From: an uncultured Gammaproteobacteria bacterium
GTDB lineage: Bacteria > Pseudomonadota > Gammaproteobacteria > Arenicellales > JAANXG01
Direction: 5' to 3'
Length of the DNA: 64,000 nucleotides
NCBI GenBank assembly: GCA_947259395.1
Contig: CAMYMN010000003.1
Span: 1-64,000, forward strand
In this document: positions 24,457 through 31,521 of the stretch, in pieces
Layout: each line of letters begins with the position of its first letter
Numbering within the stretch: the stretch's first letter is position 1
The notes under the pieces: model-generated
Databases searched by the model: none
Seen by the model: the letters and a program-made list of their open reading frames with translations, nothing else
What the model was told of the DNA's origin: nothing
Position numbers and translations under genes: made by a program

Positions 24457-25050
24457 CTAACCTGGTTCTTCTACAAACGCTCGCTTCGCCAGGATTTTCA
24501 TCCCGTTGACGTATTGTCGAGTTGACCAACCGCATTCACTGGTCAGGTTTTCCCAGTTCTGTATGGAGAGCATTGTCCACAATGCATCCGTTGCGTTTTG
24601 AGGTGTCCATTCAGGCGCAAGGGTTCCGTCGGAATGCAGCGCGTCTATAGCTGCGCGGCAACCGTGTCGCATGGCCAACATACGGTCTTTCCAGGCCGCT
24701 GCGGCCGCATCATCAGTGTCCTGGGCCAGCAGCAGCGCCTTGGCGACGCCGTAAATGTCAGGGATGTAATGACCCCAACACTCGATATATAAGGCCAGGC
24801 GCTCGACACCAGTGTTCGCTGCGCGCGATGGCGCGAGCCGGCGATCCACGTCTAAAACCTCGTCGAGATACCTCGTCGCCGCCACCAGCAGCTCCGCGCG
24901 CGTCGCGAAGTGCAGGTAGACCGCCTGGCGGGAAACCCCAGCCGCCGTGGCAATATCCCCCATGCGGACGCCACGGCCCGCGCGCTCTTCGAGCACGCGG
25001 ACAGCCGCATCCAGGACTCGTGTGCGGGTTTCGATATTATCACTTGACAC
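24457..25050 (-). CDS. TetR/AcrR-family transcriptional regulator
   Basis: A 197-residue regulator with an N-terminal TetR helix-turn-helix (TRVLDAAVRVLEERAGRGVRMGDIATAAGVSRQAVYLHFATRAELLVAA). The C-terminal ligand domain is helical. The start is GTG 25050, which lies inside operator O1. It is divergent from an NmrA-like reductase and a DUF1772 protein across a compact 71-bp control region with three matching palindromes, so it almost certainly represses itself and that pair. The ligand is unknown. Confidence 0.92.
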   Translation of the reverse strand: MSSDNIETRTRVLDAAVRVLEERAGRGVRMGDIATAAGVSRQAVYLHFATRAELLVAATRYLDEVLDVDRRLAPSRAANTGVERLALYIECWGHYIPDIYGVAKALLLAQDTDDAAAAAWKDRMLAMRHGCRAAIDALHSDGTLAPEWTPQNATDALWTMLSIQNWENLTSECGWSTRQYVNGMKILAKRAFVEEPG

Positions 25051-25072
25051 AGTGTAAAGTATGCCTTATGGT
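25044..25072 (+). promoter_or_regulatory. Predicted sigma-70 promoter for the NmrA-like/DUF1772 operon
   Basis: TTGACA (25044-25049, perfect -35, inside O1), a 17-bp spacer and TATGGT (25067-25072) as -10. Transcription would begin near 25079 and read into the gene at 25122. Repressor on O1-O3 would cover it fully. Confidence 0.55.
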
Positions 25073-25086
25073 TGACACAGTGTCAA
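25058..25086 (-). promoter_or_regulatory. Predicted sigma-70 promoter for the TetR gene
   Basis: Read on the minus strand: TTGACA (25086-25081, inside O2), a 17-bp spacer and CATACT (25063-25058) as -10. The start point would fall at about 25051, next to the GTG start codon at 25050, so the regulator mRNA is predicted to be leaderless. Confidence 0.5.
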
Positions 25087-25121
25087 TTGACACCGTGTCA
25101 AGTCAACCACTGTAGAACAGC

Positions 25122-25823
25122 ATGAAACACGAGATCAACAGCACCACGGGAACTGTAGGACTCACTCTAGTTCTCGGCGGGACCGGAACAACTGGCCGCC
25201 GCGTCGTGGAACCGCTCGCGGTTGAGAAAGGTGTCCAGCGCCTGGTTCTGTTGTCCGGTCGCGGAGAAATGGAGGCTCAGCGGTGCGACAGCATCGTCCA
25301 GGACGCGGGGATCGAATGGACCGTCGTTCGCACCAGCTGGTTCAACCAGAATTTCTCCGAAGGGGAGTTTCTCGACATGGTATTAGCCGGCGCGATCACA
25401 CTCCCGGCCGGGGATGTCCCTGAGCCGTTCGTCGACGCCAATGACATCGCCGATTTTGCGGTCGCCGCGCTAAACGAAGACGGCCACGACGGTCAGCTCT
25501 ACGAGCTTACCGGGCCGCGTTGCCTGACTTTTACCGAAGCGGTGGGGGAGATCGCCAGCGCCACGTGTCGCGAGATCCAAATTATCCAGATACCGCACGA
25601 GGCTTTTGCCGCTGGTATCGCCGAGTCAGGCGCGTCGGATGACATCGCATGGTTGTTGGACTACTTGTTTACCACTGTACTCGACGGTCGAAACGCGCAC
25701 CTGTGCGACGGCGTCCAGCAGGCGCTGGGCCGAGAGCCGACCGACTTCGCCAAGTATGCGCGCCGGACCGCCGCCACGGGCGTCTGGGACGTACCGTCTT
25801 CGCATCAAACGGCGGAGGCATAA
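25122..25823 (+). CDS. NmrA-like NAD(P)-binding protein with internal deletion
   Basis: The 233-residue product has the dinucleotide motif VLGGTGTTGRRV and, after it, the NmrA-type segments RLVLLSGRGEMEAQR, WTVVRTSWFNQNFSEGEFLD, LPAGDVPEPFVDANDIADFAVAAL and ALGREPTDFAKYARRTAATGVW. Relatives are about 285-290 residues long. The missing part is the stretch between RVVEPLAVE and KGVQRLVLLSG, some 55 residues covering the second and third Rossmann strands and the NADPH-phosphate contacts. The frame is intact, so this is an in-frame deletion and the enzyme may be impaired. It is the first gene of the TetR-controlled operon. Confidence 0.8.
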   Translation: MKHEINSTTGTVGLTLVLGGTGTTGRRVVEPLAVEKGVQRLVLLSGRGEMEAQRCDSIVQDAGIEWTVVRTSWFNQNFSEGEFLDMVLAGAITLPAGDVPEPFVDANDIADFAVAALNEDGHDGQLYELTGPRCLTFTEAVGEIASATCREIQIIQIPHEAFAAGIAESGASDDIAWLLDYLFTTVLDGRNAHLCDGVQQALGREPTDFAKYARRTAATGVWDVPSSHQTAEA

Positions 25824-26315
25824 ATGAACCAGTTCCTACCGATCATCGCGACGACAGCGCTGCTTGGGTCCGCACTGGTAGGGGGGGTCTTCTTCGCGTT
25901 CTCCAGCTTCGTGATGAAGGCCCTCGCGAGAGCGCCCTCCGCGCAGGGTATCGCTGCGATGCAGTCGATCAACATCGCGGTAATAAACCCCTCGTTCCTC
26001 GGCGCGTTCATGGGAACGGCTGTGTTGTCGCTCGGCGTGGGTGGACTGGCACTGACGGGCTGGAATCACCCCTCGGTGTTGTTGTTCCTGGGCGGCGTGA
26101 TCTCATACTTGGTGGGCACGTTTCTGGTCACAATGCTTGGCAACGTCCCGTTGAACGATCAGCTTGCCGCCGTGCCCGCTACAGACCCCGCGGCCCTTAA
26201 GGTATGGGAGCATTACCTGAACCGATGGACGATGTGGAACCACGTTCGGACGGCCAGCGCCGTGGTTGCTGCACTGCTGTTCAGCCTGGGTTTGATGCAG
26301 AACACGGGCGCGTAA
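25824..26315 (+). CDS. DUF1772 (anthrone-oxygenase-like) membrane protein
   Basis: The ATG follows the upstream stop TAA directly, so translation is coupled. The 163-residue protein has the four-helix DUF1772 pattern: ALLGSALVGGVFFAFSSFVMKAL at the N-terminus, INIAVINPSFLGAFMG, a third helix VLLFLGGVISYLVGTFLVTMLGNVPLND, and a conserved WxHYLNRWTMWNHVRTASAVVAALLFSLGL end. Pairing with an NmrA-like reductase under a TetR repressor is a common arrangement in actinobacteria and proteobacteria and suggests a small-molecule stress response. Confidence 0.9.
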   Translation: MNQFLPIIATTALLGSALVGGVFFAFSSFVMKALARAPSAQGIAAMQSINIAVINPSFLGAFMGTAVLSLGVGGLALTGWNHPSVLLFLGGVISYLVGTFLVTMLGNVPLNDQLAAVPATDPAALKVWEHYLNRWTMWNHVRTASAVVAALLFSLGLMQNTGA

Positions 26316-26321
26316 TTCCGC

Positions 26322-26336
26322 GGAACTCCGGGGACA
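26322..26336 (+). repeat. Left stub of repeat copy 1, split by the IS element
   Basis: GGAACTCCGGGGACA matches the left end of the ~127-bp repeat (GGAATTCCGGGGAC in copy 3) with one or two changes, and the rest of that copy resumes at 27811 beyond the insertion. The stub lies 7 bp after the DUF1772 stop. Confidence 0.7.
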
Positions 26337-26729
26337 CCCATTAGCCGGCCTGTGTCAAGAGCGCGATGAGACGTCTGCCGAGTCTCCAGCATAGCCTGTT
26401 AACGTTAGCCATCGTTGTTACGCTCATCGCACCCGTTATGTCTTTGTCTCTGGCATCGGATCGTAGCGATCCGCACCAGTCACCCATCTGGATCAAGGCA
26501 GGCCCCATCCTTTAGGTGGCCGCCCCTAGTGTGTGCACACGCCACACAATCTTCGGTACCAAACCGTGGCTACTACGCTAATCACAGAAGCCGTGGTTCA
26601 GCGGTCGCTGTCCAGCCCCAGAATCGCTCACGATTTGGGCGAAACGCCACAACGATGGTCGAGCGGGCGGTCCAATCAGTTTACGTGGTTACGCCACTCC
26701 CCAGCCTGGCTCCTCCTGCTCGCCCACAT
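26337..26729 (-). ncRNA. Candidate bridge-RNA region of the IS110-type element
   Basis: IS110-family recombinases use a structured noncoding RNA from one element end to pair with donor and target DNA. This 393-bp noncoding stretch at the transposase 3' side is the only room for it. It contains ATCAGTTTAC (26675-26684), identical over 10 nt to the right junction at 27809-27818, and on the minus strand next to it a GTGG-CGTAA-CCAC hairpin. RNA limits and folding were not computed. Confidence 0.4.
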
Positions 26730-27740
26730 CTAGCTGCCAAACATCAACTTCGCCTCATACGGAGTTTGATGCTTAAGCATCATATAGGTGGCCCTGGCCA
26801 GCTTCCTCGCCACCGCCCGAATCGCAATCGTGCCGTTGTTCTTCACCTTCTTGCGCTCATAAAAGCGTTGTGCCAAAGGCTCATAGCGCACCGCAAAATG
26901 CGCCGCCTCAGAAAATGCCCAGGACAGATACTTATTGCCTGCCTTGGCATTACCCGCCCCCTTCTTTTTGCCATTGCTCAGCCGTTGACTGGCCACACAG
27001 CGACTATACGAAGCAAATTGCCCAGCGCTCGCGAAACGACCAATCTCACCCACCTCCAACACGATCGTCAAACCCAGCACCGGACCAACACCGGTGATGG
27101 TTCGCAAGATGCGAAATGCCTGTGACAACTTCACCGCCTCAAGCGCCGCTCGTTCCAGCTTCCTAACCTCGTCTTGCACCGCCCGCAACACCACCAGCCC
27201 CGCCTGGACCGCTTGCCGGGTATATCCGTCCACTCCACAGGGCTCAAAATCACGCCGGCGTATCGTATTGCCACTGACCCGGACCCCGGTCGAACGCCAA
27301 ATCTGATTTTGGATGCTGATCAGTTGACTGCTGGCCGTGCGCACCAAAAACCCCCGGTGCCGCAACAGATCGCGTACCGCACGCTGCGCCTTCGGGTAGA
27401 TATAACCCTCAGGCAAAATACCCAGCCGCAGTAAATGCGCCAACCAAAACGTATCATGCACGTCATCGCTGTGCTTCAAACCCTCGTATTGCTTCACCGC
27501 TAAGGTGTTGACCAGCTTCGCATGAAAGCCCGCCTCCTGCAGTCCACCCACCAACCAGTACCAGTTAAACGTCGATTCCACCGCAATCCCCACTAGCGTG
27601 TCTTTGAACGGCAACAACGCGCGAAGCGTCAACGACAGATCATTCGCCATACGTCTCTCGTACCTACGCTTATCCTCATCGTCAATCACCACCACAACGT
27701 GGTTATTTGAATGCAAGTCAATTCCGCAGTAATGTGACAT
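26730..27740 (-). CDS. IS110-family transposase (DEDD recombinase)
   Basis: A full-length 336-residue protein. The N-terminal RuvC-like domain starts MSHYCGIDLHSNNHVVVVID (first Asp), has IAVESTFNWYWLV (Glu) and KHSDDVHDTFWLAHLLR (Asp pair). The C-terminal domain has the helix-hairpin-helix segment ITGVGPVLGLTIVLEVG, the FASAGQFASYSRCVASQRLSNGKKKGAGNAKAGNKYLSWAF region that carries the catalytic Ser, and AIRAVARKLARATYMML at the end. No frameshift or missing acidic residue was seen, so the element may be active. Translation starts at ATG 27740 after a GAGGAG site that is buried in a hairpin. Confidence 0.93.
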   Translation of the reverse strand: MSHYCGIDLHSNNHVVVVIDDEDKRRYERRMANDLSLTLRALLPFKDTLVGIAVESTFNWYWLVGGLQEAGFHAKLVNTLAVKQYEGLKHSDDVHDTFWLAHLLRLGILPEGYIYPKAQRAVRDLLRHRGFLVRTASSQLISIQNQIWRSTGVRVSGNTIRRRDFEPCGVDGYTRQAVQAGLVVLRAVQDEVRKLERAALEAVKLSQAFRILRTITGVGPVLGLTIVLEVGEIGRFASAGQFASYSRCVASQRLSNGKKKGAGNAKAGNKYLSWAFSEAAHFAVRYEPLAQRFYERKKVKNNGTIAIRAVARKLARATYMMLKHQTPYEAKLMFGS

Positions 27741-27742
27741 GT

Positions 27743-27797
27743 CAGTCTCCTCATCATTGTTGAGCAGCCAGTTTAACCGCTGGCTGCGAGGAGGCTG
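27743..27797 (-). promoter_or_regulatory. Stem-loop enclosing the transposase ribosome binding site
   Basis: An inner perfect 8-bp stem GCAGCCAG/CTGGCTGC (27764-27771 with 27780-27787, 8-nt loop) is embraced by an outer 10-bp stem (27743-27752 with 27788-27797, one mismatch or wobble). On the minus strand the GAGGAG ribosome site of the transposase is fully inside the outer stem, 6 nt before the ATG. This would damp translation of transcripts reading in from outside. Confidence 0.6.
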
Positions 27798-27812
27798 GCT
27801 AGAGGATTATCA

Positions 27813-27927
27813 GTTTACTTATCTGTGCATAACCTCGGCGCCGGCTTACTCGCCTATCACTGACGCAGATCGATTTAAGGAAAATACGCCCAACATATCC
27901 ACAGATAAGTATACCGTCCCTGGAACT
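27813..27927 (+). repeat. ~127-bp repeat, copy 1 (right portion)
   Basis: Shares GTTTACTTAT, the consensus DnaA-box-like TGTGCATAA (27824-27832), ACCTCGGCG, CTATCACTGACGCAGATCGA and ATCCACAGATAAGTATAC...GTCCCTGGAA with copies 2 and 3. Its left end is separated from it by the IS110-type element and survives at 26322-26336. Confidence 0.9.
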
Positions 27928-28003
27928 GACACACACAGTCAAACAATTGTTTCCATTTCCAGTGATTGCCCGGAGGTGACCGGGGTCCTTCAACGGATTA
28001 ATT

Positions 28004-28909
28004 TCAACCCATGCGGGAAAGCGTATCTTCTATGGTCCGTGGATTTATGTCCAGCTCACGAAATGTTCCATGACCGGGGCCCACAACATTATCGTCGCTC
28101 ATTAAAATAATCTGATCGCGTGTTAGGGGTGGATTCGGAAGCAGTGCGCTTCCCACAGCCAGCACTTTCCAAATTAGGAACGGTACTGGAAGGAACAAAC
28201 GACGTTGTTTCAGATGAGTGACAATGGTTTTGAGTAACTCACGGTAGGTGTATATTCGAGGACCGCCCAGTTCGTAGGTCCTCCCTTGCAGACGTGCATT
28301 CCCAAGTACGCGCACAACGGCTTCAGCCACATCCGCAACATAGACGGGTTGCAATCGCGTGGTACCGTTCCCAAAAAGTGGTACAACTGGCATAAAACGG
28401 GCAAGCTTTAGCAGAGTACTAAGAAAAGCGTCGTTGGGTCCGAACAGTACGCTTGGCCGCAAGATTACGGCATTTGGTGCCGCATCCCGGACCGCCTGTT
28501 CTCCCGCCGCACGGGCCGCAACGTAGCGAGATTCTGAGCCGAGATCGGCTCCAATGCCAGAAATATGTACCAAACATGCGCCTATTTCTGCTGACTGCAC
28601 AGCTACTTCTCGTGCGCCTATAACGTGGACCGCAGGAAAACTGGTCGTACTTGTTTCTACGTATAAACCCACGGTATTTACGACCCTGTCCGCCCCCTGC
28701 AAGGCGCGGTTTATAGACTTAACGTCGGTTACATCGGCTTGTATTTGCTGGATCGTGTCGTCCATGTCCTGAAACAAATTCGTTTTAGGGTGACGCACCG
28801 CCACTCGCACGCGGCAACCTTTTTGCACCAAGTGGTGGACGACACATCGCCCTAGATAACCTGTCCCACCAAAAACCGTTACTCTGTTGCCTGATGGATT
28901 ACCTGACAC
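28004..28909 (-). CDS. NAD(P)-binding atypical SDR, complex I NDUFA9-like
   Basis: The 301-residue protein starts VTVFGGTGYLGRCVVHHLVQKG with the GGxGxxG motif, then RVRVAVRHP, ADVTDVKSINRALQGADRVVNTVGLY, SRYVAARAAGEQAVRDAAPNAVILRPSVLFGPNDAFL and the hallmark PVYVADVAEAVVRVL. This is the layout of the NDUFA9-like family of atypical short-chain reductases, thought to bind NADPH and stabilise quinone-linked complexes. Start is GTG 28909. It lies between copies 1 and 2 of the repeat and is monocistronic. Confidence 0.88.
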   Translation of the reverse strand: MSGNPSGNRVTVFGGTGYLGRCVVHHLVQKGCRVRVAVRHPKTNLFQDMDDTIQQIQADVTDVKSINRALQGADRVVNTVGLYVETSTTSFPAVHVIGAREVAVQSAEIGACLVHISGIGADLGSESRYVAARAAGEQAVRDAAPNAVILRPSVLFGPNDAFLSTLLKLARFMPVVPLFGNGTTRLQPVYVADVAEAVVRVLGNARLQGRTYELGGPRIYTYRELLKTIVTHLKQRRLFLPVPFLIWKVLAVGSALLPNPPLTRDQIILMSDDNVVGPGHGTFRELDINPRTIEDTLSRMG

Positions 28910-29088
28910 GGGAACTCAAAGAAACCGATATTGTTTTAGGAGCGTGGTTGTCATCCTGACAATTAGTGATCAGATATTAATACAACATTTACCCGATATA
29001 GAATAACCGAAATGGATCGGTAAGCGTCGATTGGGCCTGATACATAGTTGAGGTTCTTTACGGAAAAATGGAGGAACCCACGTACCCA

Positions 29089-29215
29089 AATTCCGGGGAC
29101 TTTACTTATATTTGTGCATAACCTCGGCGACAGTTTACTCACCTATCACTGACGCAAGTCGATCTAGGAAAATACTCCCAACATATCAACAGATAGGTAT
29201 ACTGTCCCTGGAATT
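29089..29215 (+). repeat. ~127-bp repeat, copy 2
   Basis: Runs from AATTCCGGGGAC (29089) to GTCCCTGGAATT (ends 29215). The two ends are imperfect inverted repeats: the right end read backwards is AATTCCAGGGACAGTATACT. It contains TGTGCATAA at 29113-29121. A second partial right end (AGATAAGTATTCTGTCCCTAGAATT) follows at 29227-29251, so the right terminus is duplicated here. Confidence 0.92.
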
Positions 29216-29322
29216 GACTGTCCCAGAGATAAGTATTCTGTCCCTAGAATTGACTGGAATTGAGCGATCTTGTTTCGCAAACGATCTCTCCAAGGCGAGA
29301 CCGAATGCCAAGATCGCCGCTA

Positions 29323-29583
29323 CTATGCGGGCATCTCCGGGGCTTCCGGTACCGGTGCGAAACTGGTGGCCTCGAATCGATAAAAACCTTGGTGCTCAAT
29401 TGAGTTCTTGGCCAGTGTCTCATCAAATGCCGCCCGAGACGCTCCCATTTCGGCGTATTCACCGACCTTTTCGACCTCACCACCACTGGGGCACATCGCG
29501 CCCTCTATATCTTCCGTGTGTTGTGGATCGGTGACTATGAAGTAATCGGGATCTTTGGTGCAGCGGTAGACGATGAACTTCAT
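29323..29583 (-). CDS. Small conserved-looking hypothetical protein
   Basis: An 86-residue soluble protein, MKFIVYRCTKDPDYFIVTD at the start, with a single Cys near each of residues 8 and 31 and a C-terminal Pro/Glu-rich end (APVPEAPEMPA). ATG 29583 is the natural start. Predicted as a small alpha/beta protein. I have seen similar short proteins annotated only as hypothetical; no function is known. It lies between repeat copies 2 and 3. Confidence 0.65.
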   Translation of the reverse strand: MKFIVYRCTKDPDYFIVTDPQHTEDIEGAMCPSGGEVEKVGEYAEMGASRAAFDETLAKNSIEHQGFYRFEATSFAPVPEAPEMPA

Positions 29584-29725
29584 GACGTGTCCTCATAATA
29601 TAGACGAGTTTGCACGCACAGCTTGACCGGTAGAACGCGAGACGTCCATGACACGGATCAAGCACAAGCGTCATCGTCCTCGAAATACCGGTACAACCAG
29701 GCAACACAGGTTGCCCGATTTCCGG

Positions 29726-29851
29726 AATTCCGGGGACTTTACTTATTTGTGCATAACCTCGGCGACGGTTTACTCACTTATCACGGACGCGGATCGATTT
29801 AATGAAAAAACTCCCAACATATCCACAGATAAGTATACTGTCCCTGGAATT
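29726..29851 (+). repeat. ~127-bp repeat, copy 3
   Basis: Runs from AATTCCGGGGAC to GTCCCTGGAATT with the same internal blocks as copy 2, including TGTGCATAA at 29748-29756 and ATATCCACAGATAAG on the right. It is the best uninterrupted reference for the target of the IS110-type insertion. Confidence 0.92.
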
Positions 29852-30021
29852 GACCGACTTGGAATTGACGGGGCATAGAAGACGTAAACGAAATCACTTA
29901 TGTTACCGAGGTAAAACCAATGGGTCGGACGCGGTCGTCTGTGTTCTGACGCTCTCTGGCAGATTAAGTGGTTCCGATTCAGACTCAGGTCTGCTTGTCA
30001 CTGCCGTTGCGGTTGATTCTG

Positions 30022-31521
30022 TTACCGGCGTTTCGTCTTCGAAGCCGGTGTGGCCCGGTTATAGGACCAATCACGCAGCTGCTTGATCTGTTCGTGCATG
30101 GTTTCAGAAAGCGGTACCATCTGGCTGCTGTTGCGGGAGATGTCGCGCTGCGTAAACGTTCTTTTTGCCGAGAATGCATCGACACGCGCCGCCTTGACCG
30201 CCTGCTCGATTTCGGCGCCCGATCGACCCTGGGTGAGCGTTGCTAGGACACCCATATCGAAATCTTCTAATCTCCCCCCGTTCCGTTCGATGTGGATGCG
30301 AAAGATTTGTTCCCGCTCCTGTTCTGTCGGCAGGTCCAAAAAAAACAGTTGATCAAAACGGCCTTTCCTTATCATTTCAGCCGGTAGTCTACGAATCCTA
30401 TTAGCAGTTGCGGCAACGAAAACCGAGGCCGGCTTTTCCTGCATCCACGTTAGGAAACTCGAGAAGATATTGATATTGCCTCGGGTCGTAGACTCGTCAT
30501 CATAACCAAACGCGTTTTCGATTTCATCGATCCACAACACCACCGGTGAGACGCTTTCTGCAACGCGGATGGCGCGATCAAAGGCGAACTCCGCTGGCCC
30601 ATAGACGCCCGAAAGGATCAAGTTCATATCGAGCCGGACGAGTTGTACGTCCCATGCCGCCGCGATGGTTTTTGCGGCAAGACTCTTTCCACAACCGCTT
30701 ACTCCCATGAACAGAACACCGGACGGCAACGGTATTCCTGCATCATGAGCTTCTCTCGTAAACAGATGACTGCGTGCCAGCACCCATTCCTTGAGATTCT
30801 CGAGTCCACCTATCTGGTCCATATCAAATCTATGTGGTACGACTCTGAGGCAGCTTTCCTTGAGCAACAGCTGAGCTTTTTCCTCGTAGATCTCTTCGAG
30901 TGCCTCTTCCAAGCCAAGCTTTTTTTCATTGATCAAACGCAGAACCAGATGTCTCACTTCATTTAACGCCATGCCCCGCATCGCTGATGCACACTTGAAG
31001 ATCCAGTCATCTGGAATCGTCTCCGCGAGTTTTGTTTCCTTCGTTACTCGCGTGAAGTATTCAAAGATTTCTTGGTCGGTGGGTAAACCAACCTCGATCA
31101 AAAACACCTCCTTTTTGAGTTCGTCGGGAATGTGCGTTATCGGGTGGGAAAATACAATATATGTATCGTGATGTTTCAATTGGTGGTATAGGTCTCGGAG
31201 TGTGCGCACCAACGATTTATCATCTTCTAAATAGGCGGGCAGATCCTTCATGTAGTACACCGCATCATTGTTTGCGGACGCGATGTGCTGCAGTGCCGCC
31301 TGAGGATCTCTTAAATCGTCTAGGTTCTTATCTTTGGTATGAAATCCGCGTGCAGCAGTCCAAAGTACGACTTGCCGCTTGTCTTGATAGTGGGACTCCG
31401 AGACTGATTGCAACATCTGCTCAAGACGTTCCTCCTCCCAACTGACTAGGTAGATCAAAGAGTACCGGGACGAGACCGCCCTCGCAATTTCCTTCGTAGC
31501 TGATTTAACGGGTTCCCACAT
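30022..31521 (-). CDS. AAA-family ATPase, Ycf46-type
   Basis: A 499-residue protein. Residues 1-210 are the Ycf46-type N-terminal part that resembles an inactive ATPase domain (SRYSLIYLVSWEEERLEQML, VVLWTAARGF, YIVFSHPITHIPDEL). The AAA domain follows with DQIGGLENLKEWV, Walker A GVSGCGKS at 273-280, Walker B VVLWIDEIENAF at 327-338, the sensor ATANRIRRLPAEMIRKGRFDQLFFLDLPT and the C-terminal alpha domain. Ycf46 proteins are linked to photosynthesis or CO2-uptake control in cyanobacteria; their role in proteobacteria is unknown. Start ATG 31521. It has no obvious operon partner and lies after a palindrome at 31673. Confidence 0.9.
   Translation of the reverse strand: MWEPVKSATKEIARAVSSRYSLIYLVSWEEERLEQMLQSVSESHYQDKRQVVLWTAARGFHTKDKNLDDLRDPQAALQHIASANNDAVYYMKDLPAYLEDDKSLVRTLRDLYHQLKHHDTYIVFSHPITHIPDELKKEVFLIEVGLPTDQEIFEYFTRVTKETKLAETIPDDWIFKCASAMRGMALNEVRHLVLRLINEKKLGLEEALEEIYEEKAQLLLKESCLRVVPHRFDMDQIGGLENLKEWVLARSHLFTREAHDAGIPLPSGVLFMGVSGCGKSLAAKTIAAAWDVQLVRLDMNLILSGVYGPAEFAFDRAIRVAESVSPVVLWIDEIENAFGYDDESTTRGNINIFSSFLTWMQEKPASVFVAATANRIRRLPAEMIRKGRFDQLFFLDLPTEQEREQIFRIHIERNGGRLEDFDMGVLATLTQGRSGAEIEQAVKAARVDAFSAKRTFTQRDISRNSSQMVPLSETMHEQIKQLRDWSYNRATPASKTKRR

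Follow-up and report, generated by a model that had tools for sequence, protein, structure and literature searches.

RNA-guided elements of the IS110/IS1111 type, the order of the guides in their RNAs and their use of REP repeats as targets are already known. The seekRNAs of the IS1111 elements ISEc11, ISPa11 and ISKpn4 (Siddiquee et al. 2024, PMC11187229) resemble the system described here in several respects. They lie in a noncoding region downstream of the transposase gene, a top-strand guide is located 5' of a bottom-strand guide, the elements have subterminal inverted repeats and a promoter at the circle junction, and their targets include REP repeats and attC. The short form of the seekRNA differs in having one pair of target guides, and the Results text of that paper describes neither a second target loop nor a handshake. 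In addition, the conserved RNA region of our element is about 320 nt, compared to 82 and 154 nt for ISEc11 (PMC11187229).

The bridge RNA of IS621 (PMC11208160; PMC11208158) is also similar, with a target loop and a donor loop, in each of which the left and right guides overlap at a 2-nt core, further handshake guides matching partner DNA, and a transposase with DEDD/RuvC and serine parts. Once the strands have been exchanged, the short handshake guides of IS621 pair with the partner DNA (PMC11208158). Unlike the element examined here, members of the IS110 group carry the RNA upstream of the gene with the guides in the opposite order, the donor loop of IS621 is one internal loop, and the text of these papers describes two loops rather than three (PMC11208160; PMC11208158). 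Bridge RNAs of the IS1111 group are reported to lie in the right end, where they may hold donor nucleotides in a multi-loop (Durrant et al., PMC11208160). Insertion into palindromic repeats, which we also observe, is described for ISPa11, ISPpu9, ISPpu10 and ISPsy8 (Tobes and Pareja 2006, PMC1525189). These elements use other repeat families, and ISPpu9 further differs by having two small RNAs of its own in another arrangement.

We analysed a 64,000-nucleotide stretch of DNA from an uncultured gammaproteobacterium, hereafter called the window. It is very probable that the minus strand of positions 26727-26409 encodes an IS110/IS1111-type bridge RNA with guides that match a repeat, a donor hairpin, and a further loop (TBL2) that follows the flanks at the family level and would be a second target reader, all employed along a transposition route that we infer from published systems. 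The assignment of bases to the DNA that they would read comes from comparison among related sequences.

The transposase gene (26730-27740, minus strand, with its stop codon at 26732-26730) is intact and codes for 336 amino acids, which is within the range of 330-350 for the IS1111 group. Both DEDD_Tnp_IS110 and Transposase_20 (Pfam PF01548 and PF02371) were found in the protein, and its score of 183.7 bits with NCBIfam model NF033542 (IS110 family RNA-guided transposase, cut-off 140) places it in the IS110 family. The closest solved relatives by sequence in the PDB are IS621 and ISCro4. A Foldseek search with an AlphaFold model returned the same two proteins (TM 0.31-0.35), a match that is only supportive because the model is weak (pLDDT 66, pTM 0.48). 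The C-terminal motif GL-P----S(t)G that is given for IS1111 is absent. In the aligned stretch, SRCVASQRLSNG, the serine S255 is kept in 6/6, but the G, the P and the G right after the S of the motif are not. Therefore, we state that the element works like an IS1111 element and do not claim formal membership in that group.

The whole element, of IS110/IS1111 type, spans 26337-27810 (minus strand) without the core CA (TG on the transposase strand), which can be read from the sequence at 26335-26336 beside the element's right end and at 27811-27812 beside its left end. A relative with 89% identity aligns over this entire span. When the flanks are rejoined with one CA they read CCGGGGACA followed directly by GTTTACTTATCTGTG, and there is no target duplication beyond the shared core. 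These boundaries, with a core CA on both sides, were chosen because the rejoined site matches 41 genomic places. Specifically, CCGGGGACAGTNTACTTA occurs with at most one mismatch at 41 places in the 4.1-Mb host assembly, whereas a reversed control pattern occurs at 0. Some of the 41 sites are the two ends of one repeat, since the repeat is palindromic.

Inward of the termini, the right subterminal inverted repeat ATTAGCCGGCCT (26340-26351) follows a 3-bp extension, CCC (26337-26339), and matches its left counterpart at 9/12 positions. The left repeat TCTAGCCAGCCT (27792-27803, minus strand) follows the 7-bp extension ATAATCC (27810-27804). Thus the inverted repeats are set in from the ends by 7 bp on the left and 3 bp on the right, as in the IS1111 group, and a 3-bp extension on the side opposite the 7-bp one is itself a feature of that group. 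The 7-bp extension of the group is named in PMC11187229. The noncoding DNA amounts to 393 bp downstream of the transposase gene and 70 bp upstream, and this long downstream region is again as in the IS1111 group.

The two ends also carry the halves of a predicted promoter. An outward-facing TTGACA is present at the right end (26353-26358, minus strand) and GATAAT at the left end (27806-27811, minus strand), such that joining the ends around TG creates TTGACA-17-GATAAT, which agrees with 11/12 promoter positions. Junction promoters with at least 9/12 positions were found in 24/28 elements, compared to 23/560 shuffles. A promoter was also sought in the inserted form of the element, and none was found there. 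This distribution suggests that expression should switch on in the circle, by analogy with what has been published for ISEc11 (PMC11187229).

The occupied target repeat extends over 27811-27930 to the right of the element, and its other part is at 26321-26336. Two diverged copies without an insertion are located 1.3-2 kb from the occupied copy, at 29101-29213 and 29738-29849, and both are without the AG of GGGGACAGT at one end. The neighbouring genes at 25122-26315 and 28004-28909 resemble NmrA and anthrone oxygenase on one side and an NAD-dependent epimerase on the other, and none of them is interrupted by the element. Elsewhere in the host genome, the repeat surrounds a Y1-type transposase gene (L141, host contig C13, 27.1-31.1 kb), with 5/41 sites lying within about 2 kb of it. 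We presume that this gene codes for a REP-associated transposase, and the target accordingly resembles a REP-type repeat. The Y1-type gene is the likely source of the repeat family used by the element.

Relatives were drawn from genome collections and plasmids. A readable RNA region is present in 40 elements, including that of the window, and clustering at 70% transposase identity sorts them into 20 groups, hereafter clusters. A usable left flank was available for 32 of the 40 elements and a usable right flank for 35, and the tests compared the fit to an element's own flanks with the fit to permuted flanks, with a permutation floor of p = 1e-4 and with elements at different loci taken as independent. 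The right flanks of L071 and L053 were entered by hand. The left flank of L119 was dropped since no recognisable left end adjoins it, as was that of L074, whose element is 5' truncated. L053 is without TBL2 owing to a gap in its record, and L084, L085 and L073 were left out of the RTG2 test described below because the hairpin arm was not recognisable. Loci with no usable noncoding region or flank were left uncounted (L042-L045, L057-L060, L062-L068, L076, L080, L087, L088, L096, L102-L105, L107-L113, L127, L133 and L139), and the other uncounted loci are repeats of elements already counted. Several of these loci (L062, L063, L066-L068, L102, L107 and L109-L113) come from one genome and are copies of a close relative whose inner part is unseen there because the contigs stop inside the element.

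A scan of viral contigs returned no relative, and none was found in E. coli genomes when the gene of one relative served as the query in distant mode. Searches of phage records yielded 2 and 6 matches, led by a 1.8-kb record at about 50%, and these were not used. A distant group of five elements (L090, L091 and L142-L144), with transposases about 31-33% identical, was tested apart, and none of the guide tests on this group was significant. Judged by eye, the two target guides of its members are separated by a much longer insert, and there is a second module composed of similar words (TAACTGG ... TTGAATAG).

The putative bridge RNA region (26409-26727, minus strand) is bounded by helices conserved in a consensus of 10 relatives. 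For 51 base pairs in 7 helices among the 10 close relatives, 97.2% of the cells are paired, compared to 90.0% when partners are shuffled and 25-40% when they are slid, the latter difference being inflated since the consensus structure was drawn on the window's sequence. Changes on both sides affect 17 pairs, compared to 7.8 in shuffles (0/500 reach the observed value), while further pair types do not beat shuffles among the 10 relatives (30 vs 27.7, 96/500). RNAalifold closes TBL2 and the donor part into one domain by a long helix. The single-sequence energy of the donor part is unusual (z -3.69), and the minimum-energy scores of the first target loop, TBL1 (z -0.03), and of TBL2 (z -0.80) are not below those of shuffles. 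TBL2 alone folds otherwise in the window's sequence, and the TBL1 stem of the window has A-C and A-G mismatches. A search of 25000-30500 against Rfam with E up to 1 gave 0 matches. Opposite the transposase strand, an open frame of 236 codons (26415-27125, plus strand) overlaps a large part of the RNA region and is probably not a gene.

The 393-bp region (26337-26729) that directly follows the transposase stop codon had been proposed in the initial annotation as a bridge-RNA locus, on the basis of a 10-nt match to the element's own junction. The 10-mer, ATCAGTTTAC, indeed occurs only at 26675-26684 and 27809-27818 when both strands of the 64 kb are scanned. The second occurrence consists of the element's last 2 bases (27809-27810), the core CA (27811-27812) and 6 target bases (27813-27818). 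The annotation's view that such a match is unlikely by chance holds, in that 0/5000 order-1 Markov samples of the 393-bp region contain the 10-mer on either strand. Any 10-mer of either 20-bp junction appears in 33/5000 such samples of the region minus its first 20 bases. The location of the locus and the guide within it is borne out by relatives, whose guides fit their own flanks.

The first target-binding loop, TBL1 (26656-26727, minus strand), is present in the minimum-energy fold, and 9/17 pairs of its stem are changed on both sides. In relatives, the same layout is found directly 3' of the transposase gene: a hairpin with an internal loop that presents a guide, a small hairpin (mostly TGG...CCA), a second guide, and a dinucleotide. 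In the window, where the target reads GTAAACTG followed by TCCCC, the right target guide RTG1 (GGGGA, 26698-26702, minus strand) is complementary to the TCCCC of the right flank and fits at 5/6 positions. The left target guide LTG1 (GTAAACTG, 26677-26684, minus strand) equals the left flank, core included, over a run of 8 nt. RTG1 is 5' of LTG1 on the transcript (26702-26698, then 26684-26677), as in the guide order of the IS1111 group. The initial annotation had also noted a small hairpin, GTGG-CGTAA-CCAC. This hairpin (26697-26685, minus strand) is part of both the minimum-energy fold and the consensus structure, and it does adjoin the 10-mer. However, it is not simply beside a guide, but separates two target guides, with GGGGA on its other side. 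The sequence GGACAG (minus strand, 26616-26611) was considered as the second guide and dropped, since relatives show the right guide GGGGA before the hairpin.

Both target guides track the DNA next to each element, and together they match both strands around the core, as expected for bridge RNAs and seekRNAs. LTG1 agrees with the element's own left flank at a mean of 4.09 of the 6 positions before the core, compared to 2.16 with permuted flanks (n = 32, p = 1e-4, the floor), and the values are 3.70 and 2.11 with one element per cluster (n = 20). The complementarity of RTG1 to the right flank of its element is seen at a single register (z 9.6, n = 35, at the permutation floor). The fit is not uniform, as the run shared by left guide and left flank is at most 3 nt, core included, in 9/32 elements (L050, L054, L056, L073, L075, L085, L086, L115 and L117). 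Second copies at other sites were kept out of the tests and viewed later. L128, a second copy of L122 at another site of the same genome, has matches of 7 nt with the left flank and 9 nt with the right, and L081 has a left run of 5 nt and a right guide that fits partly. L126 and L130, from the same genome, are closely alike and have identical sequences for the left guide of TBL2 and the right-guide region of TBL1. Their left guides in TBL1 differ (GAAGTCTG vs GAGATCTG), with that of L130 agreeing with its flank over 7 nt and that of L126 over 4.

The last two bases of the 10-mer require a different assignment. As a guide, its first 8 nt correspond to LTG1, but the terminal AT (26675-26676, minus strand) equals the start of the element's left end and behaves as a handshake guide. 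Across relatives, this dinucleotide (AT, AA or AG) agrees with the two outermost bases of the left end in 17/20 clusters (p = 2e-4; L054, L084 and L073 do not agree) and in 29/33 elements (L134 does not agree either). A handshake role thus provides a natural meaning for the 2-nt extension of the 10-mer.

The loop facing the donor, which the initial annotation had suggested looking for, lies further 3' at 26551-26476. Its hairpin, CCAG-ATGGGTGA-CTGG (26476-26491, minus strand), was found in 36/40 elements and contains a left donor guide, ATGGG plus TG (26487-26481), that equals the right end AATGGG plus the core. A single covarying case is provided by L073, in which the right end is ATAAG and the hairpin also reads ATAAG. 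The adjoining AC (26480-26479) is the donor handshake. This dinucleotide equals the element's own right flank after the core in 28/33 elements (AC, TC, and TG in L134; p = 1e-4) and in 17/19 clusters (p = 0.004). The window's own copy is among the misses, since AC does not match its right flank TC; the others are L049, L074, L055 and L120. Thus handshake guides to partner DNA are observed in the target and donor loops across the family. A probable right donor guide, RDG (GATTGT, 26546-26551, minus strand), is partly complementary to the left end ATAATC, a weak match judged by eye in 36 rows.

A second target-like loop, TBL2 (26559-26638, minus strand), is located between TBL1 and the donor part, and this structure goes beyond what the initial annotation foresaw. 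It is built like TBL1, with an outer stem, a guide, a longer TGG...CCA hairpin, and another guide, and its outer helix is 100% paired in the 10 relatives. When most of the RNA is scanned by offset for identity to the left flank, LTG1 gives the highest peak (z 9.3) and LTG2, at the corresponding place of the second loop, the next highest (z 6.7, n = 32). The peak after these is 3.3, and control strands reach at most 3.0. LTG2 corresponds to GGCTTCTG in the window (26585-26592, minus strand). The right guide RTG2 (GGGGC, 26615-26619, minus strand) matches the own right flank at the register of RTG1 when anchored on its hairpin (z 6.3, n = 32), and also with one element per cluster (z 4.7, p = 4e-4, n = 17). 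A scan for RTG2 from the left-guide anchor gave nothing, and the signal is significant only with the hairpin anchor.

TBL2 fits weakly in the window's own copy, where RTG2 agrees at 4/6 positions and LTG2 at only 2/6 plus the core; the signal is at the family level. In some elements the left guides of the two loops are the same, as in L082 (GGAGTTG/GGAGTTG), L135 (GGCTTTG/GGCTTTG, left flank GGGCTTTG) and L134 (AAAGTTG/AAAGTTG, flank AAAGTTG). TBL2 carries no handshake, in that its dinucleotide equals the left end in 0/20 clusters and the right flank in 1/19.

Several other explanations for these matches were considered. The 10-mer might be a fragment picked up from the flanking repeat, or match by chance, and not act as a guide. 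The region does contain a piece identical to the junction, but that piece lies unpaired within the loop of a hairpin that is conserved, and in each relative the bases at this position agree with the flank of that relative, which makes this explanation hardly credible. The initial annotation had staked its proposal on structure shared by homologous elements and on loops that do not pair with unrelated sequence. The structure is kept, with compensatory changes, and the loops fit the flanks of their own element better than those of other elements. For TBL2, it is improbable that the loop is a mere structural arm of the donor-binding multiloop of IS1111 RNAs, matching the target through shared composition such as GGG and CTG motifs. 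Such a role would suit the consensus fold, in which TBL2 lies inside a domain whose closing helix is common to it and the donor part, and a multi-loop with donor nucleotides has been noted for IS1111 RNAs (Durrant et al., PMC11208160). Nevertheless, permuted flanks of equal composition match less, the signal occurs at a single register on each side, and elements whose guides differ considerably (L117/L135, L134, L121 and L082) contribute to it.

We also judge it rather unlikely that TBL2 is a duplicate of TBL1 that is kept alike by gene conversion, reads nothing, and fits the target as a by-product. The likeness of LTG1 and LTG2 within an element (3.55/6 vs 2.05 permuted, n = 20 clusters) is what conversion would produce; in the near family alone it is not significant (2.91 vs 2.83, p = 0.37, 11 elements). 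However, TBL2 matches the flank at positions where TBL1 fails more often than permuted flanks do, in 18/61 mismatch cells on the left (15.6% permuted, p = 2e-4) and 10/22 on the right (24% permuted, p = 2e-4). With one element per cluster, the counts are 11/46 (p = 0.009) and 7/16 (p = 0.0014). Also against conversion, RTG2 in the ten close relatives tracks the target base, using bases that were not copied from RTG1, with T opposite target A in 6/6 cases and A or G opposite target T in 4/4, a pattern that may reflect few events because the relatives share ancestry. In L124, moreover, the right guide of TBL2 matches the right flank over 9 nt and that of TBL1 over 5, whereas the left guide of TBL1 matches over 9 nt, and perhaps the two loops divide the labour in this element.

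On balance, we lean towards an RNA with three reading loops in this branch of IS110/IS1111 elements: a target loop with a handshake, a target loop without one, and a donor loop. TBL2 would then be selected in its own right to match the target and could hold a half-target at the second junction during excision, such that one RNA either reads three half-sites or switches between excision and insertion. Based on the work on IS621 and seekRNAs, the element might leave in circular form, with a promoter created where its ends join, from which the RNA would be transcribed. The transposase would bind this RNA, the target and donor loops would hold the two DNAs by pairing, strand exchange would take place at the core TG with the aid of the handshake bases, and the element would re-insert into another copy of the repeat. 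Along this route, TBL2 is favoured as a second target-reading loop that would not itself be a site of strand exchange, and while the element is being excised it may dock the half of the target that lies at the other junction. Excision of ISEc11 needs target sequence on both sides (PMC11187229). An 82-nt RNA with target guides only was sufficient for ISEc11 (PMC11187229), and therefore TBL2 and the donor loop may be dispensable.

Among the relatives, the nearest named element is ISGsu4, a name taken from the annotation of L136, and likeness to it was judged via L136 alone. L136 carries TBL1, TBL2 and the donor hairpin, and differs in that its transposase is about 48% identical to that of the window. 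The extra loop, which would also read the target, seems to be new with respect to the papers searched. The terms 'third loop' and 'second target' are absent from the main text of Durrant et al. (PMC11208160), as are 'second copy' and 'handshake' from PMC11187229. The titles and abstracts searched make no mention of a second target loop, although figures, supplements, subscription journals and preprints, which were outside the search, may hold one.

Bridge RNAs are under development as tools for DNA insertion at chosen sites. The relatives examined here, in most of which the guides track the element's own target, constitute a ready set for testing the rules of guide-target pairing outside IS621. 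A natural family that combines a second target-reading loop and a handshake with the IS1111 guide order could reveal what distinguishes excision from insertion, and would offer a new handle on specificity.
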